Notes under the pieces: generated by a model
Databases searched by the model: none
What the model was told of the DNA's origin: nothing
What the model saw: only the letters and a program-made list of their open reading frames with translations
Shown here: positions 23,318-57,868 of the stretch, piece after piece
How the letters are laid out: every line of letters begins with the position of its first letter
Numbering within the stretch: the first letter of the stretch is position 1
Assembly (NCBI RefSeq): GCF_000969825.1
Contig: NZ_KQ033919.1
Coordinates: 1,650,173-1,714,172 of the forward strand
From: Parabacteroides gordonii MS-1 = DSM 23371
GTDB taxonomy: Bacteria; Bacteroidota; Bacteroidia; Bacteroidales; Tannerellaceae
Length of the DNA: 64,000 nucleotides
Direction of reading: 5' to 3'
Position numbers and translations under genes: made by a program

Positions 23318-23347
23318 GACTAGTTTAAACGTTCCTTTTTTTTAGTC
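23318..23347 (+). repeat. Proximal inverted repeat of switch 1
   Basis: A 30-bp site bounded by GACTA and TAGTC with core CGTTCCTTTTTT. In inverted orientation it matches 23503-23532. The dyad extends to ATGACTA/TAGTCAT (23316-23349). Confidence 0.85.
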
Positions 23348-23502
23348 ATTTTCTGGGCCCGGATAAAGTTTGGTACAAAAAAGAGGGGGATTTCATACAG
23401 GGATTGGTATCTTACTGATAAGAAAGAATATAGATTTGAAAAAATAAATTTGAAAAGAATTGCAGGTTAAAAAACTAGTCGTACCTTTGTACTTGGAAAC
23501 GC
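23348..23502. other. Invertible promoter segment 1 (OFF orientation)
   Basis: 155 bp between inverted 30-bp sites. It contains a complete promoter (23460-23489) directed to the right, away from S-layer-type gene 1. No TAnnTTTG on the minus strand was found between here and the gene. Inversion would place the promoter about 100-240 bp upstream of the ATG in the right direction. No recombinase gene lies in the window, so the enzyme must act in trans. Confidence 0.8.
23460..23489 (+). promoter_or_regulatory. Promoter inside switch 1, facing away from its gene
   Basis: TTG at 23460-23462 and TACCTTTG at 23482-23489 are separated by 19 bp, an exact Bacteroidota promoter. In the present orientation it transcribes toward the 3' end of cstA (antisense). 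Confidence 0.8.
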
Positions 23503-23532
23503 GACTAGAAAAAAGGAACGATTTTTTTAGTC
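23503..23532 (-). repeat. Distal inverted repeat of switch 1
   Basis: A 30-bp site GACTAG...AAAAAGGAACGATTT...TAGTC, the inverted partner of 23318-23347. Confidence 0.85.
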
Positions 23533-23607
23533 ATACATTTTTCAGCATCTATCCTTTATTATTCAACAGATCACGCCCTACATTCGATTACCCTTATTTA
23601 TATAGAT

Positions 23608-23623
23608 ATGTACCTGCGCACGT
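23608..23623. promoter_or_regulatory. Conserved palindrome-like element beyond switch 1
   Basis: ATGTACCTGCGCACGT lies 75 bp outside the distal repeat. The equivalent position at locus 2 carries a perfect palindrome (57948-57963). Function is unknown. Confidence 0.4.
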
Positions 23624-23733
23624 TTCATAACAGCCTGTATTTCAATGACTCTAATTTTAAGTTTTTGCAGGGAGTTGTTAAAAGGGGGTATTTTGCCTGC
23701 TTTTAGGGGGAGAAACGGGGCATTTTCACCCAC

Positions 23734-23765
23734 AAAAAAAGAGCCATCGTTAGAAACGACAGCTC
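23734..23765 (-). terminator. Terminator of cstA
   Basis: On the minus strand, GAGC..TCGTT / AACGA..GCTC arms (23741-23765, with a 2x2 internal loop) are followed by seven T. It lies 26 bp after the cstA stop. Confidence 0.75.
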
Positions 23766-25294: not shown

Positions 25295-25747
25295 TCAGTT
25301 ATTCAGCAGTCGTTTTACCGCCTCTGAGATAGCGCGGCCTTCTGCTTTTCCGGCAAGGGCTTTGGATGCGGCACCCATTACCTTACCCATATCCTGAGGG
25401 CCGGCAGCACCCACCTGGGCGATGATGGCTTTCAATTCGGTTTCCAGCTCTTCGGCAGTCATCTGCTTCGGAAGATAAGTTTCAAGTACTTTCACCTGTG
25501 CCAACTCCCCTTCAGCCAGATCTGCACGATTTTGCTGTGTATAGATGCTGGCAGAGTCTTTACCTTGTTTTACTAGCTTCTGGATGATCTTCAATGCATC
25601 GGCATCGGTCAGGGTATCGTTGGCTCCCGGAGCTGTCTTGGCTTCGAGGAAGAATTTCTTTACATTTCTCAATGTCTCGAGGGCAACTTTGTCTTTTGCC
25701 TTCATCGCGTTTTTAATGTCTTCGCTGACTTTTTCAAACAAATCCAT
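25295..25747 (-). CDS. yqeY: GatB/YqeY domain protein
   Basis: The 150-residue protein matches YqeY: LFEKVSEDIKNAMKAKDKVALETLRNVKK, then QKLVKQGKDSASIYTQQNRADLAEGE and ETYLPKQMTAEELETEL. The family resembles the tRNA-binding tail of the amidotransferase GatB, and its exact role is undefined. It directly follows ftsZ by 21 bp on the same strand, so it probably ends the division operon. Confidence 0.92.
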   Translation of the reverse strand: MDLFEKVSEDIKNAMKAKDKVALETLRNVKKFFLEAKTAPGANDTLTDADALKIIQKLVKQGKDSASIYTQQNRADLAEGELAQVKVLETYLPKQMTAEELETELKAIIAQVGAAGPQDMGKVMGAASKALAGKAEGRAISEAVKRLLNN

Positions 25748-25768
25748 ATCTTAATATCTTATTAAAAA

Positions 25769-27133
25769 TTATCGGAAACTTATCACCTGCTTGCCACCCG
25801 TATCCGGCTTCTTTCCTTCAGGACGGGGAGCGGAAGTACCGACCGTAGCCGACGATACCGGAATTTCTTCGCTACCCACCTTCGAACGGGCGCGGGCGAT
25901 TACTTTCGGATCACGGTTGTATGTAGGGTTGTCCTCAATCAGGGCGATCAAGGCGTCGTCGTCCAGTTCGTCCTGATTCAATACGACCGCTTTAGCACGA
26001 GCCGCCACACGGCGCATACGTTGGCCGGAAGCCCCATAATACTTGTCGATCAAATCTTTTTCGGCACGTTCCTTGTTCAGGCGCTCTTCTTCGAGACGGA
26101 GCTCTTCTTCCGTCATGCGTCCCTGTTCGATCTGGCGTTTCTCGGCGATCTGAGGAATATCTTCCATACCGAAACCGGTTGCGAGGATCGTCATCTTCAC
26201 TTTCGAGCCGAGGGTGTTATCGATAGCCGTACCCCAGATCACTTCTATATCGCGTCCGAAGCGTGACATGAAATCGTGCACATCGTTCATTTCTTCCATA
26301 CGCAGCTCGGCTTCTTCGCCGAACGATACGTTGAATAATATCTTTTTGGCATTGAACACATCGTTGTTATTCAGCAACGGAGAGTTCAGCGCATCTTCAA
26401 TAGCCTGGCGCACACGTCCTTCACCTTCACCGAAACCGTTACTCATCAGGGCAACGCCACCGTCTTTCATCGTCGTGTTGACATCGGCGAAGTCGAGGTT
26501 GATTATACCCGGAAGGGTGATGATCTCGGCAATGCTCTTGGCGGCAATGGTCAGCGTATCATCGGCTTTTCCGAATGCGTTCGTCATGGTCAGGTCGGAA
26601 TAGATCTCGCGCAGGCGCTCGTTGTTGATCACCAGCAGCGCATCTACATTCTTGCTGATCTCCTCCACACCGTTCAAAGCCTGGATGATCTTGCGTTCGC
26701 CTTCAAAAACGAACGGGATGGTAACGATACCGACAGTCAGGATACCCATGTCCTTGGCAAAGCGGGCGATCACCGGAGCAGCTCCCGTACCTGTACCACC
26801 CCCCATTCCGGCAGTGATAAAGACCATCTTGGTACCGTCGCTAAGCATCTTGCGGATATCTTCCATACTCTCTTCGGCGGCCATCATGGCACGTTCGGGT
26901 TTGTTGCCGGCTCCCAATCCTTGGGTGATGTTACGTCCCAACGGTACTTTTATGGGTACGTCGGAACGGTTCAACGCCTGGTTGTCGGTGTTACACAAAA
27001 CGAATGTAACATCATGTATACCTTCTTTGTACATGTGGGTAACAGCGTTACCTCCACCGCCTCCTACACCGATTACTTTGATAATCTTAGGAGTATCTGT
27101 CGGATAATTGAAATTTAATATTGTATCGTCCAT
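25769..27133 (-). CDS. ftsZ: Cell division protein FtsZ
   Basis: The 454-residue tubulin-like GTPase forms the division ring. It has GVGGGGGNAV (about 22-31), the tubulin signature AGMGGGTGTGAAP (108-120), and NLDFADVNTTMKDGGVALM (T7 loop region). The C-terminal tail is about 130 residues, longer than in E. coli, with a charged, helical linker (EELRLEEERLNKERAEKDLIDKYYG). This is usual in Bacteroidota. It is the terminal dcw gene, 29 bp after ftsA. Confidence 0.98.
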   Translation of the reverse strand: MDDTILNFNYPTDTPKIIKVIGVGGGGGNAVTHMYKEGIHDVTFVLCNTDNQALNRSDVPIKVPLGRNITQGLGAGNKPERAMMAAEESMEDIRKMLSDGTKMVFITAGMGGGTGTGAAPVIARFAKDMGILTVGIVTIPFVFEGERKIIQALNGVEEISKNVDALLVINNERLREIYSDLTMTNAFGKADDTLTIAAKSIAEIITLPGIINLDFADVNTTMKDGGVALMSNGFGEGEGRVRQAIEDALNSPLLNNNDVFNAKKILFNVSFGEEAELRMEEMNDVHDFMSRFGRDIEVIWGTAIDNTLGSKVKMTILATGFGMEDIPQIAEKRQIEQGRMTEEELRLEEERLNKERAEKDLIDKYYGASGQRMRRVAARAKAVVLNQDELDDDALIALIEDNPTYNRDPKVIARARSKVGSEEIPVSSATVGTSAPRPEGKKPDTGGKQVISFR

Positions 27134-27162
27134 TGTCTTCCGGTTTTATTACATTCGCTGGT

Positions 27163-28506
27163 TTACTTTACATCATCTTCATCGTCAAAAAGACTCTTAC
27201 CAAAAGTATCTATTCCCTTGGTCAGTCGGCCGAACAATCCGGGGCCTTTCTTCTTTTCGGGTTTCTTCTTCGGGGGTTCAGGAGTCGGCTTCACTTCTTC
27301 CTTCACTTCTTCCACAGGTTTCTCAACCTTCACCTCCACTTTTGGCGGGATATAAAGGGCACAGTTTTCCGTTCCTTTGGCCAGCAAACCGACTGCTACG
27401 GCATACTCGGGGTTGTTGGCTATCATCTCTCCGCTTTCTACGATACCTTTGCGAACGGCAGAGTAGCGTACGTCCATATTCAACCGTTCGCGGATCACTT
27501 CCGGAAGATTTTTCAGGGCGGCACCTCCACCTGTTATTACGATACCTGCACCCAGGCTGTTCATCAGGCCGGTTGCTTCCAGGCGGGCGTATACATTTTC
27601 AAGAATCTCTTTCATACGGGCTTCGACCACGTTATTGAGGTCGGCCAGTTTGATTTCGCGAAGTCCCATGCCATCGGCTGAACTGACCTGTATGCTCAGG
27701 TCGTTGTCTTTCTCCATCTGCGCACTACCGTAGGTAAGCTTCACCCGTTCGGCTTCCGTCTCTACCAGATGCAGGCTAGTGATATCGCGGGTGATCAGGT
27801 TTCCTCCGAAAGGAATGACCGAGAGGTTGACCAGCTGGCCGCCTTTGTAGACCGTCAGCGTAGTTACCCCGGCACCGAAACCGATCAGGGCACATCCCAG
27901 GTCTTTCTCGTTGTCGGTCAGCACCACATCAGCCAAAGCCAGGGGAGAGACAACGATATCGGCTATTTCTATCCGGGCACGGTCGCCGATGCTATTCAGC
28001 ACATAACGTTTCAGCGAAGGGCGTCCTACAATTAGCTTGTAGCGGGCTTCAATCCGGGTACAGGGGATACCTACCGGATTAGGCTCGGGCTTTTCGTCCA
28101 AAAAATAGGTGGGGGAAACCGCAGCCAGCACATCCAACATATCCGGATGATAGTTGCGGCATTCTTCGTAGAGGCCGTCGATGATCTCTTCGGTCACTAC
28201 CCCGTCGGTACCCAGAATGCGGGGAACCGTATGGTCGATGGAACGCAGCGACTGACCTCCGATGCCGACATAAACCTTTCCGATGCGTGCACCGCCCAGT
28301 TTATTTTCGAGCTTCAGGATAAGCCGTTTGATCTTATTCGCTGTTTCTTCCACATTATATACACATCCTCTTCGTATACAGGTAGCGGAGTTCTCAACTT
28401 CGTAGGCTATAATCGAGAGTGCCCCTGTCGGGCCTTTCGTTCCTACCATACCGACCATGTGAGAAGAGCCAAGGTCGATGGCTGCTATAAAGTCTGTGTA
28501 TGCCAT
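27163..28506 (-). CDS. ftsA: Cell division protein FtsA
   Basis: The 447-residue actin-like ATPase anchors FtsZ to the membrane. The N-terminus AAIDLGSSHMVGMVG is the phosphate-1 motif, and GAGIVITGGGAALKNLPEV is the adenosine motif. The C-terminus has a Pro/Lys/Glu-rich linker followed by GLFGRLTKGIDTFGKSLFDD, a typical amphipathic membrane-targeting helix. It lies directly between ftsQ and ftsZ. Confidence 0.97.
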   Translation of the reverse strand: MAYTDFIAAIDLGSSHMVGMVGTKGPTGALSIIAYEVENSATCIRRGCVYNVEETANKIKRLILKLENKLGGARIGKVYVGIGGQSLRSIDHTVPRILGTDGVVTEEIIDGLYEECRNYHPDMLDVLAAVSPTYFLDEKPEPNPVGIPCTRIEARYKLIVGRPSLKRYVLNSIGDRARIEIADIVVSPLALADVVLTDNEKDLGCALIGFGAGVTTLTVYKGGQLVNLSVIPFGGNLITRDITSLHLVETEAERVKLTYGSAQMEKDNDLSIQVSSADGMGLREIKLADLNNVVEARMKEILENVYARLEATGLMNSLGAGIVITGGGAALKNLPEVIRERLNMDVRYSAVRKGIVESGEMIANNPEYAVAVGLLAKGTENCALYIPPKVEVKVEKPVEEVKEEVKPTPEPPKKKPEKKKGPGLFGRLTKGIDTFGKSLFDDEDDVK

Positions 28507-28511
28507 ATCAT

Positions 28512-29240
28512 CTATCTTTTAGTACAAACAATCTGATCTTTGTATTTTAAATTAATTATACTGTATTTCTCCCATCCGGTTTTCGGAATGACCTTATCGT
28601 AGAAGAGCCGCAGGTTATCCAGCTTTTCTTCATAGTCATTGAAGGAACCCAGTACAATCCGGTGGTTGCCCACCCGGGGAATCAGTTCCACTTCATTATC
28701 AGGATGAACATAAATCTGCTCTATCTGATTATTCCAGAACTCATTCTCCTGCAAAAATAATGCAAATTTGTATAAGTCGGTTACCGCCAGCTCTTTTTCG
28801 ACATATCCACTTACTAAAGGGACGTCTGTTACATAGCGATGACTGACCGGCATCGTGCTGCCGAGGTTATCCACATAGAAGTTTCCCCTGGAACTGATCA
28901 CACGCAAAATAGGTATTTTCTGCTCTACTTCGAGCTTGACGATCCCCGACGGCGTTTTATAGGCTTCAATGCGGGCTATCATCTCGTTCTTTTTCAGTTC
29001 ATTCTCTATCTTGTCCGTATTGATCTCGTCCATAGGCTTTTTGATCGGGTTAAGATCCGCCTTTCTAAGGATCGACACCAGGTCGCTTTCGCTTACGAAA
29101 TGTTTATCGAGACTGTCTTTTACCACGACCTGGAGCTCATGGCATTCCTTATCCTGCCTCATATCCCGGAAGAAGAAGGTGACAAACACGATGTAACAAG
29201 ACAACAGTGTAGCTACTATTATGGATACTATACGAATCAC
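28512..29240 (-). CDS. ftsQ: Cell division protein FtsQ
   Basis: The 242-residue protein has a single N-terminal membrane segment (about 5-25) followed by a POTRA-like region (DSLDKHFVSESDLVSILRKADLNP) and the FtsQ/DivIB beta domain (IARIEAYKTPSGIVKLEVEQKIPILRVIS). It bridges early and late divisome parts. The start overlaps the murC stop by 4 bp. The position in the cluster strongly supports the call. Confidence 0.9.
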   Translation of the reverse strand: MIRIVSIIVATLLSCYIVFVTFFFRDMRQDKECHELQVVVKDSLDKHFVSESDLVSILRKADLNPIKKPMDEINTDKIENELKKNEMIARIEAYKTPSGIVKLEVEQKIPILRVISSRGNFYVDNLGSTMPVSHRYVTDVPLVSGYVEKELAVTDLYKFALFLQENEFWNNQIEQIYVHPDNEVELIPRVGNHRIVLGSFNDYEEKLDNLRLFYDKVIPKTGWEKYSIINLKYKDQIVCTKR

Positions 29241-30622
29241 AGTTTCTTATCCAATATTTGTTTAACTGGTTCGATCAACCGGTCGATATCGCCGGCGCCA
29301 ACCATTAATACGATTTCAAACGTATCTGCCTCCTTTTCCACCAGGTCGAGCAATTCACCTTTACGGATCAGCTTCTTGGCGGGAATGGTCACAGCATCGA
29401 ATATGATTTCCGAAGTTACCCCCGGAATCGGTTCTTCCCGTGCGGGATAGATATCCAGCAGGATCAGTTCGTCCAACAACGACAGGCTGGCGGCAAAGTC
29501 GGCAGCAAAATCGCGTGTACGGGTATAAAGATGCGGCTGGAAAATACCGGTCACCTTGCGTCCGGCATACAATTCTTTTACAGATTGTATACTGGCTTTC
29601 AGCTCGGCAGGATGATGTGCATAATCGTCGATCAATGCGATATTCTCCTTTTTCAGGTGAAAGTCGAAACGACGTTTCGGGCCTGCGAAAGAAGCCATGC
29701 CTTTCTTTATTTCCTCGGGTGTTACACCGTTCAGCCATGCCAAGGCGATAGCGGCAACCCCGTTCTCTATATTTACTTTCACGGGGACACCCAGCTGGAT
29801 GTCGGCGATACGGATATCCGGGCCGACGAAATCGAACCAGATCTCACCGTTTCCGATACGGATATTCTCCGCATGGAAATCACCTCCCTCGGAAGCCGAA
29901 TAGGTATATAGTTTTACTCCTTCCTGTAGACGGGGAGTCACGTCAATGCCTTTCCGCATGATCAGGCAGCCATCGGGACGGATCAGCGAAGTGAAATGCT
30001 CGAAGCTTTCGCGATAGGCTTCGGCCGTGCCATAGATATCCAGATGGTCGGGATCGGCAGCGGTGATAACAGCCATATAGGGGGTCAACCAGTGGAAAGA
30101 ACGGTCGAACTCATCCGCTTCGATCACGGTTAGGTCACTTTTAGCGGACAGCATCAGGTTGCTGTCGTAGTTCTTCAGGATGCCACCCAAAAAGGCATTG
30201 CAATCTACATGCGATTGTTTCAGCAGATGGGCAAGCATAGAAGAGGTGGTTGTCTTACCATGCGTTCCGGCGATGCAAAGGCCGCGCGAACAGTTGGTGA
30301 TCTCGCCTAATACACGGGCACGTTTCATGATCTCGAAGCCGTTCTGACGGAAATAAGTCAACTCCGTATGCGACTCGGGAACGGCCGGCGTATAAACAAC
30401 CAAAGTCTGAGCCGGGTTCTTAAAAGCATCCGGGATCAGGGAGATATTATCTTCGTAATGAATAACGGCTCCTTCACGGTTTAGTTGCGCAGTCAGGTCG
30501 GACGAGGTTTTATCATATCCTCCCACCTGCTTTCCCTTCGACAGGAAATAACGGATCAGGGCACTCATCCCTATTCCACCTGCTCCGACAAAATAAACGG
30601 CCGTTATCGTATTTATATTCAT
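29237..30622 (-). CDS. murC: UDP-N-acetylmuramate-L-alanine ligase MurC
   Basis: The 461-residue Mur ligase adds L-alanine to UDP-MurNAc. It has FVGAGGIGMSALI at the N-terminal Rossmann fold, the ATP loop AGTHGKTTTSSML (118-130), EADEFDRSFHWL, and DDYAHHPAELKASI in the C-terminal domain, which is MurC-specific. It overlaps ftsQ by 4 bp and follows murG. Confidence 0.98.
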   Translation of the reverse strand: MNINTITAVYFVGAGGIGMSALIRYFLSKGKQVGGYDKTSSDLTAQLNREGAVIHYEDNISLIPDAFKNPAQTLVVYTPAVPESHTELTYFRQNGFEIMKRARVLGEITNCSRGLCIAGTHGKTTTSSMLAHLLKQSHVDCNAFLGGILKNYDSNLMLSAKSDLTVIEADEFDRSFHWLTPYMAVITAADPDHLDIYGTAEAYRESFEHFTSLIRPDGCLIMRKGIDVTPRLQEGVKLYTYSASEGGDFHAENIRIGNGEIWFDFVGPDIRIADIQLGVPVKVNIENGVAAIALAWLNGVTPEEIKKGMASFAGPKRRFDFHLKKENIALIDDYAHHPAELKASIQSVKELYAGRKVTGIFQPHLYTRTRDFAADFAASLSLLDELILLDIYPAREEPIPGVTSEIIFDAVTIPAKKLIRKGELLDLVEKEADTFEIVLMVGAGDIDRLIEPVKQILDKKL

Positions 30623-30627
30623 ATATA

Positions 30628-31737
30628 TTATTGCTTTTTCTCTATTATCTTTACTATCTTGTCGACGATCCGTTCGGCACTCTGATGCTGGGCCAGTTGT
30701 TCGATATTACGGCTCAATAGAGCCAGTTGCTCATCGTCGTGTATCACTTCAAGCGCCCTGGTGACCAACTGCTGTTCGGCATCTTTATCTGCAACCATTA
30801 TGGCAGCGTCTTTGTTCGCCAAAGCCAGTGCATTCTTAGTCTGATGATCTTCCGCCACGTTAGGGGAAGGAACCAGGATTACCGGCTTCTTCAGCAGGCA
30901 TAGTTCAGAGATCGAACTTGCACCGGCACGGGAAATAATCAGATCGGCCGCCGAATAGGCATAATCCATACGCGTAATAAAGTCTGAACACCAGATCGGC
31001 ATACCGCGATAAGCTTTCAGATGCTTGGTCGCTTCACTGTAATAATAACGTCCGGTCTGCCAGATAACCTGCACATCGGAAGCAAACAGTTTATCCAGAT
31101 CGCCCTGGATACTGCGGTTGATCGTCCGGGCACCCAGGCTACCGCCTACCACGAGGATCGTTTTCTTTTCGGGAGACAGGCCGAAGAAGGCTAGTGCTTC
31201 CTCTTTCTTGTCCGTGGCTTCTTCCAGATCCTGGCGAACAGGGTTTCCGGTTATCACAATCTTGTCGGCAGGAAAGAACTTTTCCATGCCGTCATAGGCA
31301 ACGCATATTTTGGACGCCTTTTTCGCCAATAGCTTATTGGTGACTCCGGCATACGAGTTCTGTTCCTGTATCAGGGTAGGAATACCCTGCGAAGCAGCCA
31401 TCCATAAAGTCGGGCCACTGGCATATCCGCCTACGCCGACTGCGATGTCGGGACGGAAGTCGCGAATGGTTTTCTTTGCCATACCGAGACTCTTCCGCAG
31501 GCGGTTGAGTACTTTTATATTGTTGAACAGGTGAGCACGGTCGAAGCCACTCACCGGTAAACCTACTATTTTATAGCCGGCGGCCGGAACCTTTTCCATT
31601 TCCATCCGGTCTTCCGCACCTACAAATAAGATTTCCACATCAGGGAAACGTTTCCTGAGGGTATTGGCAATGGAGATAGCCGGGAAGATATGTCCTCCGG
31701 TTCCGCCACCACTTATTATTATACGGTACTGTTTCAT
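30628..31737 (-). CDS. murG: UDP-GlcNAc:lipid I transferase MurG
   Basis: The 369-residue GT28 glycosyltransferase makes lipid II. It has ISGGGTGGHIFPAISIANTL at the N-terminus, GGYASGPTLWMAA, GGSLGARTINRSI and the donor-site region SRAGASSISELCLLKKPVILVPSP. It sits between ftsW and murC with gaps of 3-5 bp. Confidence 0.98.
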   Translation of the reverse strand: MKQYRIIISGGGTGGHIFPAISIANTLRKRFPDVEILFVGAEDRMEMEKVPAAGYKIVGLPVSGFDRAHLFNNIKVLNRLRKSLGMAKKTIRDFRPDIAVGVGGYASGPTLWMAASQGIPTLIQEQNSYAGVTNKLLAKKASKICVAYDGMEKFFPADKIVITGNPVRQDLEEATDKKEEALAFFGLSPEKKTILVVGGSLGARTINRSIQGDLDKLFASDVQVIWQTGRYYYSEATKHLKAYRGMPIWCSDFITRMDYAYSAADLIISRAGASSISELCLLKKPVILVPSPNVAEDHQTKNALALANKDAAIMVADKDAEQQLVTRALEVIHDDEQLALLSRNIEQLAQHQSAERIVDKIVKIIEKKQ

Positions 31738-31740
31738 CTT

Positions 31741-33012
31741 TTATGTTGTTTCGGGTTGCGTATCAGGCACCCAGTTTGATATTTCTTCTTCCGTTATGGC
31801 CGGAGCAGCGCCAGCACCTTCCGTTTCCTCTTCCAGGTCTTCCTCTTCCTCATTACCCATATTGGCACCGAAACGGCTTACACTCAGGATAATCCCGAAA
31901 TATATACAGGAGATCACCGTCGAGGTTCCACCGCGGCTGACCAGCGGCATCGGCTGCCCGGTTACCGGTATCAGGTTGACGGCTACCGCCATATTTGCCA
32001 GTGCCTGCACCACGACCAGCAAGCCGCACCCGAGTACCAGGTATTTGGGAAAGGCTTTATCGCACTTTCGTGCAATCATTCCAACTCGCACCAACAGCAT
32101 GATATACAGCATCAGCACGAATACACCGCCTACCACGCCCAGTTCTTCAATAATGATCGCATAGATAAAGTCGGAATAGGCCTGCGGAAGGAAATCCCTC
32201 TGCTGCCCATGACCCGGCAATTGTCCGAACAGTCCCCCGCGTGCAATAGCGATCTTCGCATGGGAGACCTGGTAGTTATCATCCGTTATCTTATAGACTC
32301 CGTTCTCATCCGTGTCCGATTCGTGCCCGTCGAAGAAACGTTCCAGACGTCCCTGCCAGGTACTGAAACGGTCGGGCAGGTACTGCGTCACCCCGGTCGG
32401 CGTAAAGCGCAACAGCACGATAAACACGACGAGTGAAAGCAGCAGGAAACCCGCCAGTTTCCCCAGTTTCTTCAGCGGCAACTGCCCGATAAACATCATC
32501 AGGAAGCAAACGCCGAACAACATGAATGCCGTAGAGAAGTTTTCCGGAAGGATCAACACGCATGTCGCCCCTACCCCGATCAGGATATACTTGAATATCT
32601 GGTCGTCCGTAAACTTATTCCGCTTGCTGAGCAGGAAGGCGATGAACACGATCGAAGCCAGCTTGGCAAACTCCGAGGGTTGAAACTGTATGCCGAATAT
32701 CTCCAGCCAACGATGCGCGTCATTGGCATTGATCCCCACAAAGGGCGTGACCAGCAACATCAGCACCGATACGGGAAGCAAAAGTATGAATGCCGGAAAG
32801 AACCGGCACGGGATATTGTGCAACAGTAAAACCAGCACAAACCCGCCCAGCAGGAAAGTGGCATGACGAACGATCGGCGCCCAATGATTCGCGTTCTTGT
32901 AGGCGATCGTACTCGTGGCACTGAACACCTCAACAACCGAAATCAGGCACAGGAACATGAAGATGATCCATATCACCCGGTCGCCCTTAAATAATTTACT
33001 TGCCAGATCCAT
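31741..33012 (-). CDS. ftsW: Lipid II polymerase FtsW (SEDS family)
   Basis: The 423-residue membrane protein has about ten segments. SEDS signatures are FQPSEFAKLASIVFIAFLLS, HAKIAIARGGLFGQLPGHGQQRDFLPQAYSDFIYAIIIEELGVVG (with the conserved active-site region) and MPLVSRGGTSTVIS. It polymerises glycan strands at the septum together with FtsI. The C-terminus is acidic, which is common in this phylum. Confidence 0.97.
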   Translation of the reverse strand: MDLASKLFKGDRVIWIIFMFLCLISVVEVFSATSTIAYKNANHWAPIVRHATFLLGGFVLVLLLHNIPCRFFPAFILLLPVSVLMLLVTPFVGINANDAHRWLEIFGIQFQPSEFAKLASIVFIAFLLSKRNKFTDDQIFKYILIGVGATCVLILPENFSTAFMLFGVCFLMMFIGQLPLKKLGKLAGFLLLSLVVFIVLLRFTPTGVTQYLPDRFSTWQGRLERFFDGHESDTDENGVYKITDDNYQVSHAKIAIARGGLFGQLPGHGQQRDFLPQAYSDFIYAIIIEELGVVGGVFVLMLYIMLLVRVGMIARKCDKAFPKYLVLGCGLLVVVQALANMAVAVNLIPVTGQPMPLVSRGGTSTVISCIYFGIILSVSRFGANMGNEEEEDLEEETEGAGAAPAITEEEISNWVPDTQPETT

Positions 33013-33023
33013 TCTAATTCATT

Positions 33024-34358
33024 TTACAAATTACGTACGCAAGCCTTGAACTGATCGCCGCGATCTTCGTAGCTTTTAAAGAGGTCGAAGCTCGCGCAGC
33101 AGGGCGATAACAACACCGTGTCGCCTTTTTGAGCCAGTTTGTAAGCCTTTGTTACCGCCTCTTCCATCGAGCGGGCATCTTCTATCTGCGCTACTTTTCC
33201 ATCGAAAAAGGCATGCAGCTTCGCATTGTCTACGCCGAGGAAGATCAAGGTATGCACTTTCTTCTTTACGAGTTCTTCTATTTCAGAGTAGTCGTTGCCC
33301 TTGTCGGTTCCCCCCAGTATCAGCACCAGTTTAGTGGTCATACTTTGTAAGGCGTACCAGCAAGAGTTCACATTCGTAGCTTTCGAATCGTTGATATAGT
33401 CTACTCCGCGCACACGGGCAACCTTCTCCAGACGGTGTTCCACCCCCGTAAAGTCACTCAGCGAAGCCCGTATATTCTCATCGTGGATATCGACCACCTT
33501 AGAGGCGATACCCGATGCCAGCGAATTGTACAGGTTATGTGTACCCGTTAATGCTAATAAGTCCTGATCCATTGTAAATGTTCCGTTTGAGGTTTCAATT
33601 ACTATTTGCTTATGATCCGTATATCCCTTCACGCCGTCTTCATGCGTTTCGGCGAATGGGTAAAGAGTAGCCGCAGGATGGCGCTTGGCAATCTCGCGGG
33701 CAATAATTGGGTCGTCGTTCCAGAAGATGAATGCATCTTCGGACGTCTGGTTCTGAATGATGCGGAACTTGGCGTCCACATAATTCTGCATCTCGTAATT
33801 ATAACGATCCAGATGATCGGGCGTTATATTCAGCAAGATAGCTATATCCGCCTTGAAGTCGTACATGTTATCCAACTGGAAACTGCTCAGTTCGATGACA
33901 TAGACTGCGTGCGGGTCTTCGGCAACCTGCAATGCCAGGCTGTTTCCTACGTTTCCGGCCAGGCCGACATCCACTCCGGCTTCTTTCAGGATGTGGTATG
34001 TAAGCATGGTGGTCGTTGTCTTACCATTGCTACCGGTGATACAGATCATTTTCGAGTCGGTGTATCGTCCGGCAAATTCGATTTCGGAGATAATATGCGT
34101 CCCCTGCGCTTTCAGCTGTTGGATGATCGGAGCCTTGTCGGGTATTCCCGGGCTTTTGATGATCTCGTCGGCATTCAGAATGTCGGCTTCGGTATGCTGT
34201 CCTTCTTCCCAACGGATCCCGTGGGCGTCGAGCATATCCTTATACTTGGGTTTGATAGACGAGAAGTCGGAAACGAACACGTCAAATCCTTTCACCTTCG
34301 CCAGCACGGCAGCTCCTGCGCCGCTTTCTCCTCCCCCTAATACAACAATTCTTTCCAC
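33024..34358 (-). CDS. murD: UDP-MurNAc-L-alanine:D-glutamate ligase MurD
   Basis: The 444-residue ligase adds D-glutamate. It has VLGGGESGAGAAVLA at the N-terminus, ICITGSNGKTTTTMLTYHIL (ATP loop), NITPDHLDRY, FTGVEHRLEKV and NDSKATNVNSCWYAL. It lies between mraY and ftsW in the dcw order. Confidence 0.98.
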   Translation of the reverse strand: MERIVVLGGGESGAGAAVLAKVKGFDVFVSDFSSIKPKYKDMLDAHGIRWEEGQHTEADILNADEIIKSPGIPDKAPIIQQLKAQGTHIISEIEFAGRYTDSKMICITGSNGKTTTTMLTYHILKEAGVDVGLAGNVGNSLALQVAEDPHAVYVIELSSFQLDNMYDFKADIAILLNITPDHLDRYNYEMQNYVDAKFRIIQNQTSEDAFIFWNDDPIIAREIAKRHPAATLYPFAETHEDGVKGYTDHKQIVIETSNGTFTMDQDLLALTGTHNLYNSLASGIASKVVDIHDENIRASLSDFTGVEHRLEKVARVRGVDYINDSKATNVNSCWYALQSMTTKLVLILGGTDKGNDYSEIEELVKKKVHTLIFLGVDNAKLHAFFDGKVAQIEDARSMEEAVTKAYKLAQKGDTVLLSPCCASFDLFKSYEDRGDQFKACVRNL

Positions 34359-34373
34359 GTTTATATATATTTA

Positions 34374-35633
34374 TTATCTCATCTTCAATGTGACGATCGT
34401 AATAACCGCCAGAATAATACCGATCAGCCAGAAGCGCACCACAATCTTCGATTCGGGCACTACGTTGAACGGTTTTTGTATCAACGCCTGTATACCGGCA
34501 TTCCCTGCTTTCTGGAAATGATGATGTAACGGCGTCATTTTAAATATACGGCGACCTTCGCCATACTTCTTTTTGGTATACTTGAAGTAGGCAACCTGTG
34601 CCATCACCGAAATACTTTCAGCGAGAAAAATACCACAAAGAATCGGGATTAGCAACTCTTTGCGTATAATTATAGCGAATACCGCAATAATACCTCCCAG
34701 CGTCAAGCTACCCGTATCGCCCATAAACACCTGTGCAGGGTATGAGTTATACCAAAGGAAACCGACCGTTGCACCGATAAAGGCAGCGGCAAAGACCACC
34801 AGCTCTTCCGCTCTCGGAATAAACATGATATTCAGGAAGGAGGCAAATTCGAAGTGAGACGACATATAAGCGAGTATTCCCAAGGCAACCCCGATAATAG
34901 CAGAACTTCCAGCTGCCAGGCCATCCAGTCCGTCCGTCAGGTTTGCCCCGTTGGAGACAGCCGTTACGACAAAGATTGTCATCAGCACAAACACCAGCCA
35001 TGCCGCTTCTTCCTTATAATCGCCGGCCCAGCTTACCAGTTGGGCATAATCGAAATTGTTATTCTTCATGAACGGGATGGTCGTCTTGGTCGATTTGGTT
35101 TCCGCCGTATGGTAATGAACCTCCTCAATCACGTTGTCATGGCGTACCTCCATATTCTCCTTGATCACGACATCCGGGCTCATAAACAACACCAGACCGA
35201 CAATCAGCCCCAGACCGATCTGTCCGATAATCTTAAACTTACCGTGCATTCCCTCTTTGTTCTTACGGAATACCTTGATGTAATCGTCGGCAAAACCGAG
35301 GGCACCCAGCCAGACAGTGGTCACCATCATCAGGATCACATAGATATTATTCAGTTTGGCACAAAGCAACGTCGGTATCAAGATGGCGATAATGATAATG
35401 ATACCTCCCATTGTCGGCGTACCTTTCTTGCTCATTTGTCCTTCCAGGCCGAGATTACGTACCGTCTCGCCGATCTGCAACATCTGCAAACGGTCGATAA
35501 TACGGCGGCCGATGGCTGTCGAGATAAACAAAGAGAGGATCAGTGCCAGTCCGGAACGGAATGATACATATTTAAACATCCCCGCTCCAGGGAGATCCAG
35601 TTGATCCAGATAATTAAAAAGATAATAGAGCAT
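34374..35633 (-). CDS. mraY: Phospho-MurNAc-pentapeptide transferase MraY
   Basis: The 419-residue integral membrane enzyme forms lipid I. It has [25 protein letters not shown] (Asp pair), [26 protein letters not shown] and a C-terminal [11 protein letters not shown]. It has an insert of about 50 residues between segments (about 175-210, [17 protein letters not shown]), which I believe is usual in Bacteroidota MraY. It lies 7 bp after murE. Confidence 0.98.
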
Positions 35634-35639
35634 GTCGTT

Positions 35640-37121: not shown

Positions 37122-37164
37122 ATTCTATCTATTAACAGACACAGGCCCGAAGCCTGCCCCCATG

Positions 37165-39333: not shown

Positions 39334-39335
39334 AT

Positions 39336-39689: not shown

Positions 39690-39769
39690 AACCCCTATTT
39701 TCTGTTGATAGTTGGCAAATGGCTGTTGACAGTCAAATCAACCGACCGGGCCTGTCCATAGCCAACTGC

Positions 39770-44782: not shown

Positions 44783-46447
44783 TTAATTATAGTAAGGATT
44801 CTGTTCCAAAAGAGGATTTTTCTGAATTTCACTACGTGGAATAGGCATCAAATAATGTTGCGGCAGGAATTTCCGTTCCTGAACATCTACAAACGAATAT
44901 GTTTTCTTTCCGGTTGCCAGATCTTTTACAATATGGACTCTTCTCTCCACTTTATTTTCTGTCTGTTCTGCTATTTTCCAACGACGAACATCATAATAGC
45001 GATGTTCCTCAAAAGCTAATTCAATCTTACGCTCGTGTTGGATTTTCTTTAATAACTCATCCCCGGATGAAGTGATATCAGGCAACACGTCTTTTCCTTC
45101 ACGTGCCCTTTCCCTTATCAGGTTAACATATTTACGGGCAGTAGCTTCGTCTCCCAGATGAAACATCGCTTCTGCATAATTCAGATAAATTTCTCCTAAA
45201 CGGGAAAAGATAAAAGGTTGTGTACCTTTATCCACCCATGCAGCAGTAAGAGCCTCGTTCATGAATTTCCGGATCGTATATCGTGTCTTAGAAGTGTTCC
45301 ATCCCTCCGGGCCGTATTCTGTATCAACACCATTTACACCTTCCGGATCACTTGTTGTCCAGAATTCAATTTCACGTCCCCGGAATTCTTGTCCATCACA
45401 GAGAATTGAATGATAGAAACGAGGCTCACGCCCTTTCCACGGCTCGTCTGTTTTATACAAATCGGGAGTCGGCATCGAACCGTCTTCCATTTCATAAGAA
45501 TCGACCATATCTTGCAAAGGGCATGTTGCACTCCATCCGGTAAAACCATTCGGAGAGTTTTCCCAGTCAAAACGATGACCATACTCAGAACTATACAAAC
45601 GCATGAATATAATCTCCTTACTTTTGCTTGTCAGGAACAAGTCTTTATAACTGGGATCCAGTTCATAAGCTAACGAACCGCTGTTATCGGTCAAATCGAT
45701 AACAGCTTTTGCAGCATCTGCTGCAGCTTTCCATTTCTGAGTATCACCGGAAGAATTCCATTGTGGACTAGCTGCATACAATAGCATTCTTGATTTCAAT
45801 GCCAATGCAGCACCTTTAGTAGCACGTCCGAAATTTTTATCTTCCTGTTTAACAGGCAATAAAGAAGCTGCTTTATCAAGTTCTGTTACAATAAAGGAGA
45901 TACAGTCTTCATAACTGTCACGAGTCACCATCATATCATCGTTAATACCAAATGTTTTTGTGATAATAGGTACTCCACCGTATCTGTTCACCAGTTCAGC
46001 ATAAAGATAAGCTCTCAAAAATGTCACCTCTCCTGTCAAACGGTTAACCAATTCTTCCTGATTCTGCAACAATTCGATATTCTCAAAGAAGATATTACAA
46101 TCTTTTATCCCTGTAAAATATTCTTTCCACACATTATAACTTCCAACCTGATCAGGTGTTACCTCTCCCTGGTTATAGCTCCAGGCACTAGCCCAGTTAA
46201 AGTTACTCATAGATTCATCGCAAATAAAACGTGTAGAAGCCTGATATTTCAATCCCACCGTACTTTCAGGTCCAAAATAATCCCGCAAACCCATATAACG
46301 TTCATTGACATAAGCTTCAGTCAGAGAGGGATCTGAAAACACAGCTTCTCCTGTAAATGAATCCAGGGGTTCTACATCCAGAAAATCCGAACATGAGATA
46401 CAACATGCACTAAAAAGAAATATTGACAATTTTGCTATTTTATTCAT
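44783..46447 (-). CDS. SusD/RagB family glycan-binding outer-membrane lipoprotein
   Basis: The 554-residue protein has a lipoprotein signal ending ACCISC-SDFLDVEPLDSFTG, a typical SusD N-terminus. TPR-like helices follow, and C-terminal markers are LGEIYLNYAEAMFHLGD, ERKIELAFEEHRYYDVRRWKIAE and KFLPQHYLMPIPRSEIQKNPLLEQNPYYN. It forms the lid of the SusC channel and binds the glycan at the cell surface. The ATG at 46447 is preferred over an upstream TTG. It follows susC after 18 bp. Confidence 0.96.
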   Translation of the reverse strand: MNKIAKLSIFLFSACCISCSDFLDVEPLDSFTGEAVFSDPSLTEAYVNERYMGLRDYFGPESTVGLKYQASTRFICDESMSNFNWASAWSYNQGEVTPDQVGSYNVWKEYFTGIKDCNIFFENIELLQNQEELVNRLTGEVTFLRAYLYAELVNRYGGVPIITKTFGINDDMMVTRDSYEDCISFIVTELDKAASLLPVKQEDKNFGRATKGAALALKSRMLLYAASPQWNSSGDTQKWKAAADAAKAVIDLTDNSGSLAYELDPSYKDLFLTSKSKEIIFMRLYSSEYGHRFDWENSPNGFTGWSATCPLQDMVDSYEMEDGSMPTPDLYKTDEPWKGREPRFYHSILCDGQEFRGREIEFWTTSDPEGVNGVDTEYGPEGWNTSKTRYTIRKFMNEALTAAWVDKGTQPFIFSRLGEIYLNYAEAMFHLGDEATARKYVNLIRERAREGKDVLPDITSSGDELLKKIQHERKIELAFEEHRYYDVRRWKIAEQTENKVERRVHIVKDLATGKKTYSFVDVQERKFLPQHYLMPIPRSEIQKNPLLEQNPYYN

Positions 46448-46465
46448 AACAATAGATTTAAACAA

Positions 46466-53698: not shown

Positions 53699-56600
53699 TT
53701 ATTTTACGATTGCTTTAACAGCTGCTTCACCTTCTACAGCTACTACAACTACACCAGCAGGAGCAGCGATTTCAGCCTTATCAGAAGAGATTACTGTGTT
53801 GGCAACTGTCTGACCAAGAACGTTACTGATAGTAACTTTCTTACCCTGAGCACCAGAGATAGTAACTGTACCGTTACCTGCAACTACACTAACTGAAGAA
53901 GCGTTGATATTTTCATTAGCAACAGGATCTTCGCTAGTCTTCTTCAAGTTGAACTGAGCAGCTTCAGCAATATTATCTACTAATACAGGAACACCATTGT
54001 GTACACGTACATAACGAGTTTCACCCTTAGAGTTTGCTGTCTGCAGATAGAAGTCAGCATTGCTGCTTCCGTCTACGATGCGGAATGCAAATGTAGCAAC
54101 ATTCAATTTCTTGTTGTTATTCAACATGATTGAATCTTTACCTGCATGTTTTACTGTTCCAGTATATTTAGAACTTGCAATAACCAAAGTATCTTCGATA
54201 TGTTTAGCTTCTACGAATGCCAGACGATATTTATCCTGATACATGATCGGATCTTTTCCTACTACTGCAGAATCTTCTTCCAAAGAAACCAAGTAACGAC
54301 CAGTTCTGAATTCTTTTGTATCAATAGTCGGATGCTGGTGGCAATTTTCAATCTTATCCGGACAAGTATTGTACTTACCTGCAGGAGTATAATCGACACC
54401 TAGAGCCAACATATACTGAGGCATTGTTGTTGCATTGCGAACATAAGCAGTATCGATAAAGATAGGCAACATACTATTTTCCGGACGATCGGCAACATTG
54501 ATTACACCTAAGAAGTTCAGACTATCCTTAGCCACTGCAGTTCCATTTTCAGCAGTACGGTTAGCACTGTTTTCATACAGGAAGCGAGTCGGTTCGTTAG
54601 CCATATAGAACTTAGCTGTATCAATAGTCAGATCAGTAAAGTCGTCAGTAATAGTTTTACCAAGACGACGGTAGATAGCATTATTGTCATCATCGAATGC
54701 AAATGTTGCAATACTGTTTTCAGTATTAATACCTTCTACAGACAATACTAATGACGGGTGTTTAACACCTGATACAGTAGAAAGATCTTTCTGTACTAAA
54801 GCATAGTAGCAAACAGCATCTTTATCTTCTTCCTTCAATTCGTTATTTTCTTTGAAATAGAAAGAGGTTGCATTTTCAGCATCAGTCAAAGTATAACCCT
54901 TGTCACCGTTAGCCAACAGATAAAGTTTATTTGCTTCGGTAGCCTTCGGATCATAAACCTGAATTTTGTAAGCAATTCTATACAGATTCTTTACACCGTC
55001 AATCTTACCTTGATAGCCGAATTTGTCTTTTACAGGAGCTTCATCTTCAAATGTAGCAGGAACGAATACAAACATCTTACCAGCCTTGGCATCCGGATTA
55101 ACAGCCATAGCTGCATCTTCATCAACTTCTACAAAGTTACCGGCATTCAAACCGTTGAAATACTTCAATGCGAATACATTTTCGATATATTCATCGTAAT
55201 CGAGAGCCTTGTAGCCAAGAGTTTCAGATGTTACAGTTTCACCGGCAGCTTTCGTCCATGACAAGGTATCGTTTGCACTAATTACACCTGTTCCCAGATT
55301 AGTTCCATAGTTAACTGCAAATACTTTATCGTCAGCAGCTTTATACAACTGAACATTTTTAGCATAATATGTTTCCGGATATTCACGGTTGTAGATATTT
55401 ACAGTCTGAATACCTGCAGCACCTGTGTTCTGTTCAACAACCCACTGTGCACGCGGCATGTGTTCGAAGTTTTGAACATCACCGAATACTTTAGAAGTTT
55501 CTTCGTTTGCCCAGATCAGTTTCTGGCCAGCAAAGTTTGCAACTAAATTCTTACCGGTAATAGTTTTGTTAGCTTCTTTTCCAGAGAACAAATCAAAGAA
55601 GTATACGCCCGAAGCCAAAGTTGTCTTCACATATTCGTCGTCGATCTTTTTGATTGAGATGCGAGTGTTAACTGTGTTCAAAGGATTTCCCACATAATGA
55701 TCAGAGCTACCTACTGTTATTTCACTATGGTTATTAGCCAGATAGATCAATCTAACAATATTGTTTTCAGTACCAGCAGCAGAATGATCTGTTTCATTAG
55801 CTACACTTAATTCTGGGTTATCTACAGTATTCATATCCCCCCATGAAGTCTGAGCTTTGTTCTTTTTAGCCCAACCACCTGTGCGGATTACCAATGAGTC
55901 TGCATTCGGGAAGTAAGTGAACTGGAAGTTGTAACGACCGTTCAAATCCAAACGAGCAAGAGGATCAGCTGTATAACCGAAATCTGCAAATTTACCTGTT
56001 GTAAATCGTAAAGGACGATCTCTTTCATTTACTGTTTCAGTAACGAAGTCACGAGCTACAGAGAGATAAGTATTATCTGCTGCTTTATCAGCTTCTTCCA
56101 ACATCAGAGATACCCATTTGTTATCTGCTACTCCTTTAGCATAATAACCAGAAACAGCTGTGTTCAGAGTGTTTTTAGCAGACGTAATAGCTGCATCCAA
56201 TGTTTCACCCTCTGCTAATACATCTGTATAAGAAGTTTTAATAGCTGCATCAGCTGTTGCTTTAGAACCAAAGTTGTCACTAACAAATTTAGCAACCGAA
56301 CCAGATGTTCCAACTGTAGACATAGTCTTAATTTCCTGAGCAGCAGTCAAACGTGCAGCAGCGTCTTTACCATGAACACCAGCAACATAAGCTACTGTAG
56401 CTTTCACTACCGCTTTAGCTTGATCGTCACCAGCATATGTAAAACCTTCAATAGCTTCAACTACCTTATCAACAGTTGCAGCATTAACTATAGCGCTACC
56501 AGCATCAGTTGCAATCACAGCCAATGCATTCAATACATTTGTTTTCTGACCTGCATCTATAGCACCATCTTTAAGACAGGCTGTTAATAAAGCATTAACA

Positions 56601-57589
56601 AGCACTTTCTCCTGTGCTTTCTGATAATAAGCAATTTCAGCTATATATAAAGCATCATAAGATGTTGTCAAAGAATTAAACGGATCAGTTCCATCTGCAA
56701 CAGCAGCCGGGAAACCTACAGCCGGAACAGCTTTGTAAGCATTTTCAGTAAACAAGTTACCGAATACATTCGTTTCGTCGTTAATCACGTTCGGAGTGAA
56801 TGTGAATTCTGCTTTGCTATCATCCTTTGAAGGATTTTGCTTCCACAACAATGAGTTCAAATCGTCTGCACCTAAAACAATAGCCTCAGGAGAAGCAGGA
56901 ATAGCTTTAACTACTTGAGTAGGATCACCTGCCGGAACATTCTTTAATGAATACTTTACAGCAGCAAGTTTTACATCATTCGCAATAGAAGCTGCATTTG
57001 CTACCAAGACAACAGTTGAGTCATTCTTTTCGCCGAAAGCAGAAGTAAAACTTTTAGCATCAGCAATTTCAAAACCTGCATCCTTAACAACAGATGGAGC
57101 AGAAATCCATTTCCATACAGAAACTTCCGATCCCACAGGTACAACCTTACTTGTCAAAGCTGCTGCATTAGGCCATGCAGCAGTACCTTCTTTATTAACT
57201 GCGATTGCATCAGATGTATTAACACCCAAAAACTCTCCTGTGCCTACGTTCTGTAATTGGTAAGAGTAACCAGCTTCAGCATTTCCACTGATAACAGCCT
57301 TCCAAAGAGTTCTTCTTACTTCAACAGCGTTAATGCCAGTAGCAGAACCATCAACCACAACCAGCTCATATCCTCCAGCATTAGTCGGCTGCATTGCCAG
57401 AATATGCTTATCAATGGAAGCACCAACCGCTAATTGGAAATATCCTTTTTCGATAGTCCGCATACCTTCGGTAGGTGCGTTTGCTGTCGCATACTTTGCA
57501 AAATCCCCCGTCGGTGCAATCTGCGCAGTAGCTCCGAAACTTGTAACTGCCAGAACAGCAGCTACCAGAGTAGAAAACTTTTTGTTCAT
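53699..57589 (-). CDS. S-layer-type surface protein 2, phase-variable (DUF6383-like C-terminus)
   Basis: The 1296-residue secreted protein has a signal peptide (MNKKFSTLVAAVLAVTSFGATAQ) sharing its first ten residues with protein 1. The body is beta-rich and Ala/Thr/Asp-rich. The C-terminus (SVVAGNGTVTISGAQGKKVT, ISNVLGQTVANTV, APAGVVVVAVEGEAAVKAIVK) is almost identical to protein 1, and the inner patch TGRYLVSLEEDSAVV matches too. The open frame extends 36 codons upstream, but the signal peptide fixes the start at 57589. The likely role is as an alternative S-layer glycoprotein displayed on the cell surface. The promoter segment upstream faces away, so it also reads as OFF. Confidence 0.82.
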   Translation of the reverse strand: MNKKFSTLVAAVLAVTSFGATAQIAPTGDFAKYATANAPTEGMRTIEKGYFQLAVGASIDKHILAMQPTNAGGYELVVVDGSATGINAVEVRRTLWKAVISGNAEAGYSYQLQNVGTGEFLGVNTSDAIAVNKEGTAAWPNAAALTSKVVPVGSEVSVWKWISAPSVVKDAGFEIADAKSFTSAFGEKNDSTVVLVANAASIANDVKLAAVKYSLKNVPAGDPTQVVKAIPASPEAIVLGADDLNSLLWKQNPSKDDSKAEFTFTPNVINDETNVFGNLFTENAYKAVPAVGFPAAVADGTDPFNSLTTSYDALYIAEIAYYQKAQEKVLVNALLTACLKDGAIDAGQKTNVLNALAVIATDAGSAIVNAATVDKVVEAIEGFTYAGDDQAKAVVKATVAYVAGVHGKDAAARLTAAQEIKTMSTVGTSGSVAKFVSDNFGSKATADAAIKTSYTDVLAEGETLDAAITSAKNTLNTAVSGYYAKGVADNKWVSLMLEEADKAADNTYLSVARDFVTETVNERDRPLRFTTGKFADFGYTADPLARLDLNGRYNFQFTYFPNADSLVIRTGGWAKKNKAQTSWGDMNTVDNPELSVANETDHSAAGTENNIVRLIYLANNHSEITVGSSDHYVGNPLNTVNTRISIKKIDDEYVKTTLASGVYFFDLFSGKEANKTITGKNLVANFAGQKLIWANEETSKVFGDVQNFEHMPRAQWVVEQNTGAAGIQTVNIYNREYPETYYAKNVQLYKAADDKVFAVNYGTNLGTGVISANDTLSWTKAAGETVTSETLGYKALDYDEYIENVFALKYFNGLNAGNFVEVDEDAAMAVNPDAKAGKMFVFVPATFEDEAPVKDKFGYQGKIDGVKNLYRIAYKIQVYDPKATEANKLYLLANGDKGYTLTDAENATSFYFKENNELKEEDKDAVCYYALVQKDLSTVSGVKHPSLVLSVEGINTENSIATFAFDDDNNAIYRRLGKTITDDFTDLTIDTAKFYMANEPTRFLYENSANRTAENGTAVAKDSLNFLGVINVADRPENSMLPIFIDTAYVRNATTMPQYMLALGVDYTPAGKYNTCPDKIENCHQHPTIDTKEFRTGRYLVSLEEDSAVVGKDPIMYQDKYRLAFVEAKHIEDTLVIASSKYTGTVKHAGKDSIMLNNNKKLNVATFAFRIVDGSSNADFYLQTANSKGETRYVRVHNGVPVLVDNIAEAAQFNLKKTSEDPVANENINASSVSVVAGNGTVTISGAQGKKVTISNVLGQTVANTVISSDKAEIAAPAGVVVVAVEGEAAVKAIVK

Positions 57590-57665
57590 AATAAATAATT
57601 TAATATTAATACTAAAGTGTAATAAGTTCAATTCACAATTGAAACGCCTCGTTCTGATAATACAT

Positions 57666-57695
57666 GGCGAGTTTAATCGTTCCTTTATTTTAGCC
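57666..57695 (+). repeat. Proximal inverted repeat of switch 2
   Basis: A 30-bp site GGCGAG...AATCGTTCCTTT...TAGCC. Its outer dyad is ATGGC/GCCAT rather than the GACTA/TAGTC of the other three sites. It matches 57839-57868 in inverted orientation. Confidence 0.8.
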
Positions 57696-57838
57696 ATTGA
57701 ATTTTGAGGTTAGTCTGTTCGTCTACGAAAGATACTATTTCGTACTTATATTGCTATTCAATTGATAAGAAAGCATATAGAAGGATAAAAAAGATCTTAA
57801 AAAGAATCGTTCGTATCAAACTAATTCTTACTTTTGTA
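57696..57838. other. Invertible promoter segment 2 (OFF orientation)
   Basis: 143 bp between the inverted sites. A -7 box (57829-57836) faces right, away from S-layer-type gene 2 and toward the HU-like gene at 58252. No minus-strand TAnnTTTG was found between the segment and the gene. Confidence 0.78.
57829..57836 (+). promoter_or_regulatory. -7 box (TACTTTTG) inside switch 2, facing away from its gene
   Basis: TACTTTTG fits TAnnTTTG. The -33 at the expected distance is weak (TCG). It corresponds in position to the promoter of switch 1. Confidence 0.6.
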
Positions 57839-57868
57839 GACTAGAAAAAAGGAACGATTTCACTAGTC
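57839..57868 (-). repeat. Distal inverted repeat of switch 2
   Basis: A 30-bp site GACTAG...AAAAAGGAACGATTT...TAGTC. It shares its first 20 bases (GACTAGAAAAAAGGAACGAT, then TT) with the distal repeat of switch 1. Confidence 0.85.

Follow-up and report, generated by a model that had tools for sequence, protein, structure and literature searches.

Candidate invertible promoters of one design, all in the OFF orientation, upstream of putative DUF6383 surface-protein genes in Parabacteroides gordonii

Two genes and two promoter elements in the window

The window analysed here, 64,000 nucleotides of the Parabacteroides gordonii MS-1 = DSM 23371 genome (contig NZ_KQ033919.1, positions 1,650,173 to 1,714,172), includes two large genes encoding candidate surface proteins, each preceded by a pair of inverted sites (arms) that bound a short, putatively invertible segment with a promoter box (elements A and B). 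Gene A (19946..23236, minus strand; 1096 aa) and gene B (53699..57589, minus strand; 1296 aa) have in common the leader MNKKFSTLVA and a C-terminal DUF6383 domain. The domain of gene A (aa 1022-1095; 19952..20173, minus strand) resembles the sorting domains of the type IX secretion system (T9SS) and forms the gene's 3' end, which is conserved among paralogs. The domain of gene B (aa 1222-1295; 53705..53926, minus strand) begins approximately where the DNA homology with the flank-orthologous loci of two relatives restarts; the rest of the gene is mostly a variable coding cassette (53930..57560, minus strand), lacking DNA homology to those loci and homologous to a gene behind an arm-less promoter in one of the two relatives. 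The start of gene B is likely 57589 and not 57697, the start of the longest open reading frame (ORF).

Element A is composed of a gene-proximal 30-bp candidate recombination site (23318..23347, plus strand), a gene-distal one (23503..23532, minus strand) and the 155-bp segment between them (23348..23502, no strand assigned). Element B comprises a partly degenerate gene-proximal site with 16 of the 20 consensus positions (57666..57695, plus strand), a gene-distal site (57839..57868, minus strand) and a 143-bp segment (57696..57838, no strand assigned). All four sites have TT at their centre. Promoter A (23460..23489, plus strand) consists of TTG at 23460-23462 and, after 19 nt, the box TACCTTTG at 23482-23489; the box of element B, TACTTTTG, is located at 57829..57836 (plus strand), and no TTG was found 18-21 nt upstream of it (57805-57836). 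The flank-matched counterparts of element B in other genomes, L183 and L204, likewise have no TTG. Both genes are on the minus strand and both boxes on the plus strand, so that the two promoters are directed away from their genes (OFF). The site pairs, the segment lengths and the outward TAnnTTTG boxes had been claimed in the original prediction, and all of them are present on inspection; the motif that it gave for all four sites, GACTA...TAGTC, is exact in three, the site at 57666 reading GGCGA...TAGCC, and is slightly too strict as printed. The window contains four sites, compared with 0.02 expected in shuffled sequences (up to three mismatches).

Pfam gives DUF6383 alone for the two products; they have no match in NCBIfam, and no S-layer family was found in Pfam or NCBIfam. 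The six sampled DUF6383 members all match TIGR04183 (T9SS sorting domain type A) weakly, with a best E of 0.0087. The predicted fold of the domain has seven strands (mean pLDDT 80, pTM 0.62), and the structural matches ranked 1-4, 6 and 13 are, by title, T9SS C-terminal domain (CTD) or complex entries (E 0.012-0.11), the top four being chains from RgpB-CTD and T9SS-complex entries (E 0.012-0.018). A sequence search of the PDB with DUF6383 returned no credible relative (best E 0.11). SprA, of the T9SS translocon, is encoded in the genome. The T9SS-like fold matches, the weak sorting-model matches and SprA together make surface export likely, and the common leader and sorting-like C-terminal domain of the products point to the same probable route. 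Formation of an S-layer by these proteins is conjectural: the earlier reading of elements A and B as invertible promoters is supported, and the S-layer label then attached to their genes is unproven, DUF6383 being the sole Pfam domain. The SprA gene (G000:C1:1603527-1608179, G000 being this genome) lies between two DUF6383 switch loci.

Genome-wide distribution and orientation of the elements

The genome (6.79 Mb in 8 contigs) contains 114 matches to the general form of the site (both strands, up to three mismatches), compared with 7 for a reversed control pattern, and at least 29 element pairs of one design were resolved among the matches listed (first 100 of 114); further copies of the site, which the original prediction had proposed to look for, are thus present genome-wide. 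No 30-mer at 463,020 background positions of the genome reached 16 of the 20 fixed positions. Twenty elements immediately precede a large gene whose product has DUF6383 at its end. The distance from the proximal arm to the gene start is 66-83 bp in all 18 elements scored for it; in the other two it is 81 bp (L088) and, as read from the longest ATG frame, 169 bp (L092). The 38 DUF6383 matches in the genome include 27 above 95 bits, a cut-off of our own choosing: 20 of these genes have an element, and seven have none (best nearby site score at most 14). At least nine further elements with the same kind of site lie beside genes other than DUF6383: genes encoding two HU-like DNA-binding proteins, an extracytoplasmic function (ECF) sigma factor, a Polysacc_synt_2 polysaccharide-synthesis protein, DUF3575, DUF6261, GLUG and Listeria-Bacteroides-repeat proteins, and one protein without a match. 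The element beside the ECF gene (L086, G000:C1:2877714-2877885) is of the GT class described below, has no TAnnTTTG box inside and lies 93 bp upstream of the gene, so that a regulator may be phase-variable here. L094 (G000:C1:3942971-3943166), upstream of an HU-like gene, is the only ON element among the 29 listed, two of which were unscored. Viral contigs searched with two site sequences and for relatives of DUF6383 gave no match.

In all 55 elements examined, from four genomes, a TAnnTTTG box lies no more than 16 bp from an arm; in 51 of them TTG is found exactly 19 nt upstream of the box, as in element A. TAnnTTTG is the Bacteroides -7 consensus, and mutating this box has been used to weaken a promoter (PMC4747536, available text). 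The box is directed away from the DUF6383 gene in all 20 elements of this genome. Including ten genomes, 66 elements were scored, 65 OFF and one ON (OFF/ON: this genome 20/0, G037 17/1, G012 15/0, BH.2_3 3/0, P. faecis 2/0, P. acidifaciens 2/0, P. distasonis NM39_I3 1/0, P. massiliensis 1/0, RGIG9024 3/0, RGIG7277 1/0). The count leaves aside L207 (gene side only inferred), one-arm and arm-less loci, ten P. goldsteinii loci (same genome as G012), further P. acidifaciens matches that were unfetched or unscorable, and the N-gapped first element of L132, an odd triple-site locus; for L092, L170 and L179 the gene side was assigned from the genome-wide lists of elements and DUF6383 genes. OFF is the usual assembled state, in isolates and metagenome-assembled genomes alike. 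The earlier observation that both window elements are OFF agrees with their outward boxes and, with 65 of 66 scored elements in this state, the double OFF is unremarkable.

The call of polarity is supported by two kinds of gene-facing promoter. The arm-less paralogs L209, L171, L180 and L176, from four genomes, have such a promoter at -110 to -115, and the box of L168 (G037), the sole ON element of the 66 scored, faces its gene at -124. L176 of G001 had been considered as an inverted element and was rejected when it proved arm-less. Another group of DUF6383 genes without an element has a forward TAnnTTTG approximately 381-391 nt upstream: L104, L105 and L208 in this genome, L172 and L173 in G037, and L229, L270, L282, L284, L287 and L288. 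L104 and L105 have a similar long leader in common; an Rfam search of the L104 leader, that of a fixed-promoter gene, gave no family.

Probable recombination at the sites

The 30-bp site is a quasi-palindrome centred on bases 15-16, and this central dinucleotide is equal between the two arms in 71 of 71 element pairs from four genomes; in 2000 re-pairings of the arms the agreements averaged 27.5 and never exceeded 40. The pairs, here as in the comparisons of inversion and coding regions below, are non-independent (paralogs; three or four genomes). The classes are TT (38), AT (23), GT (9) and TC (1), and a TA class is present at some loci of other species. Bases 18 and 22, in the inner half, agree between arms in 97%, bases 1-13 have at most a weak excess of agreement (up to 0.27), and bases 14, 17 and 19-21 are invariant and hence uninformative. 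Across the 71 pairs, the outer half-sites are unlike between arms and the inner half-sites largely alike. Serine invertases make a two-base crossover at the centre of the site, and a centre that is matched between arms and variable between elements is as expected of such an enzyme. On a quick tree of 55 segments, in which 22 of the 52 inner branches have less than 80% support, parsimony gives 12 changes of class, and well-supported branches force at least three changes for AT, and as many for AC; both arms have probably changed their dinucleotide together more than once.

No site-specific recombinase family was found among the 36 window proteins scanned (some small ORFs and two frames of more than 400 aa, 66-1328, plus strand, and 44783-46465, minus strand, were left out), in line with the earlier remark that no recombinase gene is nearby. 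One protein of the genome scores 322.8 bits against the NCBI family Mpi (cut-off 272); its gene is on the contig of the window, 2.7 Mb away, and its best-matching relatives come from G012 and G037 (96% identity). Two paralogs encoded on another contig score below the cut-off (200.9 and 186.9 bits). The suggestion that a single recombinase could serve both elements has thus gained a candidate, a distant serine invertase of the Mpi family, and we infer that this Mpi, rather than either paralog, works the sites.

The elements could instead be inverted by another enzyme, a diverged Mpi paralog or a tyrosine recombinase, which we regard as unlikely, judging the tyrosine enzyme from the site sequences. 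The two additional Mpi-like genes of this genome would be candidates, and G012 and G037 also have Mpi-like genes, of 36-37% identity. A tyrosine recombinase is expected to need identity over an overlap of 6-8 bp, and the agreement between arms, perfect at the central two bases, is weak or absent over bases 1-13. Tyrosine recombinases do run other Bacteroidales switches, according to the available text of PMC4747536. A single sequence resembling the site (17 of 20 positions; L102:7425-7454) lies 89 bp upstream of mpi in this genome, G012 and G037 (L148-L150). At 17 other mpi loci the best match, a poorer one, is located at -88 to -91 in 10 and not in 7, its scores of 12-14 overlapping the background; autoregulation of the invertase through this site is a guess.

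Inversion itself was looked for in relatives, and one orthologous segment is reversed. The flanks of L168 (G037) and L203 (G012) are collinear (upstream 94% over 251 bp, downstream 96% over 219 bp); the segment between them gives a match in reverse, 96% over 131 bp, and none forward. A whole-region blast of L168 gives a reversed stretch spanning arm to arm against both L203 and L076 of this genome. Inversion is shown between species for this one orthologous element, by comparison of sequences; among flank-matched element pairs between genomes, 17 of 18 have the same orientation and one is inverted.

The high frequency of OFF also fits fossil switches, locked in that orientation, with expression coming from the seven element-less DUF6383 genes: all 20 elements are OFF here and 65 of 66 over all scored genomes, one arm of element B is decayed and its TTG missing, and arm-less paralogs with forward promoters occur. 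This we hold to be improbable. The inverted ortholog in a relative speaks against it, as do the repeated changes of dinucleotide class with arms still equal in 71 of 71 pairs, the promoter boxes kept in 55 of 55 elements, and the ON state of L094 in this genome.

We prefer working switches: invertible promoters of one design, OFF in the assembly and served by a distant Mpi-family serine invertase, a proposal to which, taken as a whole, we give a probability of about 0.88. A master invertase encoded elsewhere on the chromosome would bind both 30-bp quasi-palindromic sites, and strand exchange at the shared central dinucleotide would flip the segment of approximately 143 bp. In one orientation the TTG-19-TAnnTTTG promoter would drive the surface-protein gene, whose start is approximately 80 bp beyond the proximal arm; in the opposite one it would fire outward and leave the gene silent. 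The products, with their common leader and T9SS-like C-terminal domain, would go to the surface.

Several observations weigh against this proposal. Only one of the 66 scored elements is ON. Element B, whose proximal site is degenerate and whose box lacks a TTG 18-21 nt upstream, might function poorly or be decaying, and flipping of elements A and B in this strain is extrapolated from the cross-species comparison, in which the whole-region blast of L168 and L203 gives, in addition to the reversed stretch, a long collinear match (85%) through the segment; a forward match was absent when the segment was compared alone. Three Mpi-like genes are encoded in the genome, a resolvase match of 34.8 bits being a weak fourth, and Mpi-like genes are present in 34 of 38 genomes of the genus, so that presence or co-occurrence does not identify the enzyme. 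The product of gene A scores 15.1 bits with TIGR04183, for which the cut-off is 23, and no structural match of DUF6383 has an E of 0.001 or less (best 0.012), other beta-sandwich proteins scoring nearby.

Replacement of coding regions and relation to known systems

Pairing of loci by their upstream flank (-1600 to -400) gave 27 reciprocal-best pairs from three species, excluding L196, which duplicates L305, the loci L092, L170 and L179, for which the start rule did not work, and pairs with less than 400 bp or 75% identity in the flank. Coding regions were sampled at nt 120-1200, or up to the end of the available sequence; DNA homology covers less than 20% of the sample in 17 pairs, 20-60% in three and at least 60% in seven. 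The upstream homology of those 17 pairs ends at +21 to +83 in 16 and at +178 in one. Both genes are complete in 11 such pairs: in seven of them homology restarts 185-227 nt before the stop, a distance close to the DUF6383 length, and in the other four it does so deeper in the gene, at 347 to 1652 nt. The set of L188, L196 and L197 is ambiguous, two G012 loci matching the flank of L188. Within this genome, 22 of the 27 strong DUF6383 genes were compared as complete paralogs; their median identity is 85% around the start (-25 to +30) and 79% in the final 225 nt, and the middles are at the shuffled level (0.55 compared with 0.54).

Gene B is such a case. Its locus and the flank ortholog of G037 are collinear in two parts, one running from -2354 to +29, the other starting at +3661 and taking in 2 kb of downstream DNA; between the two there is no DNA homology. 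The coding region of gene B corresponds instead to that of L171 of G037, a gene whose promoter has no arms and faces it; the proteins are 73% identical over 1324 columns, and the DNA matches in two blocks, which together extend from -25 to 15 nt beyond the final sense codon. The flank orthologs of L171 in this genome and in G012 have other coding regions, with 28-30% partial protein identity to L171 and 40% to each other. L136 (G012) and L144 (G037) have 96% protein identity, yet their flanks pair with other loci; the stretch that they share runs from -283 to approximately 200 nt past the stop and includes the promoter element.

Fast divergence in place, without replacement, would also yield unlike coding regions at orthologous loci, and the partial similarity in three of 27 pairs (20-60% coverage) and the restart of homology well before DUF6383 in four of 11 complete pairs are in its favour. 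We consider it highly improbable: in 16 of 17 pairs the upstream homology breaks off between +21 and +83, in seven of 11 homology restarts 185-227 nt before the stop, and coding regions recur at other loci, gene B and L171 having 73% and L136 and L144 96% protein identity. On this evidence coding cassettes are mobile from locus to locus, and the promoters mostly stay behind. Homologous recombination in the conserved ends would be the simplest route of replacement, its mechanism and rate being conjectural; replacement is seen between species, and exchange within a strain is a possibility at most.

Scarcely tenable is the reading of the outward orientation as the working state of a two-way toggle for a far-side gene, which we rejected because the nearest far-side ORF of at least 100 aa runs with the promoter in only 11 of 20 elements (window element B included) and not in the other nine, and far-side distances range from 334 to 1070 bp compared with 66-83 bp for the DUF6383 gene in 18 of 18. 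Working promoter switches and moving cassettes might form a single system of two layers: approximately 20 addresses, one master serine invertase, non-cross-reacting dinucleotide sets, and cassettes mobile through the shared leader and the shared type IX sorting domain, also to arm-less always-on addresses, all still active within strains. As a whole this is a tentative and rather doubtful picture, made less probable by the shared stretch of L136 and L144, which includes the promoter element.

Elsewhere in the window there is a DprA-like gene. The surroundings of element A (25295-40687) comprise, past a CstA-like gene, a yqeY-like gene and then an ftsZ-to-mraW cell-division and cell-wall cluster.

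If promoters flip and coding regions are mobile, a lineage could reach many more surfaces than the number of its genes would imply, and the switchable silent product of one species would be the fixed-promoter product of its neighbour, as with gene B and its G037 counterpart. The rule of the central dinucleotide would give a testable account of how one invertase serves approximately 30 elements without joining them together, and the near-universal OFF state raises the question of what triggers ON. The cited literature, in its available parts, ties surface variation of gut Bacteroidales to life with phages. Mpi-type switching and phase-variable Parabacteroides glycoproteins were already known (PMC5903667, PMC2943079, PMC12632263, in their available text). 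New, as far as a literature search can show, are the scale, dinucleotide classes matched between arms, OFF as the almost universal state and cassettes that move; among the titles and abstract openings searched none dealt with cassette exchange or central-dinucleotide classes in Parabacteroides, which is weak evidence of absence, subscription papers being thinly covered.

The sap S-layer system of Campylobacter fetus combines an invertible promoter with cassettes that recombine through conserved ends. It has one promoter for a cluster of cassettes, whereas here approximately 20 scattered loci each have their own invertible promoter. The Tannerella forsythia S-layer proteins TfsA and TfsB are exported by the type IX system with cleavage of the C-terminal domain (PMC4804311); the DUF6383 proteins would resemble them if, as is likely, they reach the surface by this route, and differ in that the available description of TfsA and TfsB includes no invertible promoter family. 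The phase-variable glycoproteins (Dgp) of Parabacteroides distasonis (Fletcher 2007, cited in PMC2943079) are a phase-variable surface-protein family of the same genus, the likeness being one of description only; the accounts of Dgp in the available text of PMC2943079 do not mention cassette replacement. P. distasonis NM39_I3 has a DUF6383 gene with the same kind of element, in the OFF orientation. The Mpi-controlled invertible promoters of Bacteroides fragilis (Coyne 2003), as described in the available text of PMC5903667, PMC4747536 and PMC12632263, are alike in the NCBI family of the invertase, the many distant inverted-repeat promoters, the TAnnTTTG -7 box and the surface products. They differ in number, 13 compared with at least 29 here, and in their targets, capsule loci there and mostly DUF6383 proteins here; the several central-dinucleotide classes of the Parabacteroides elements may be a further difference.

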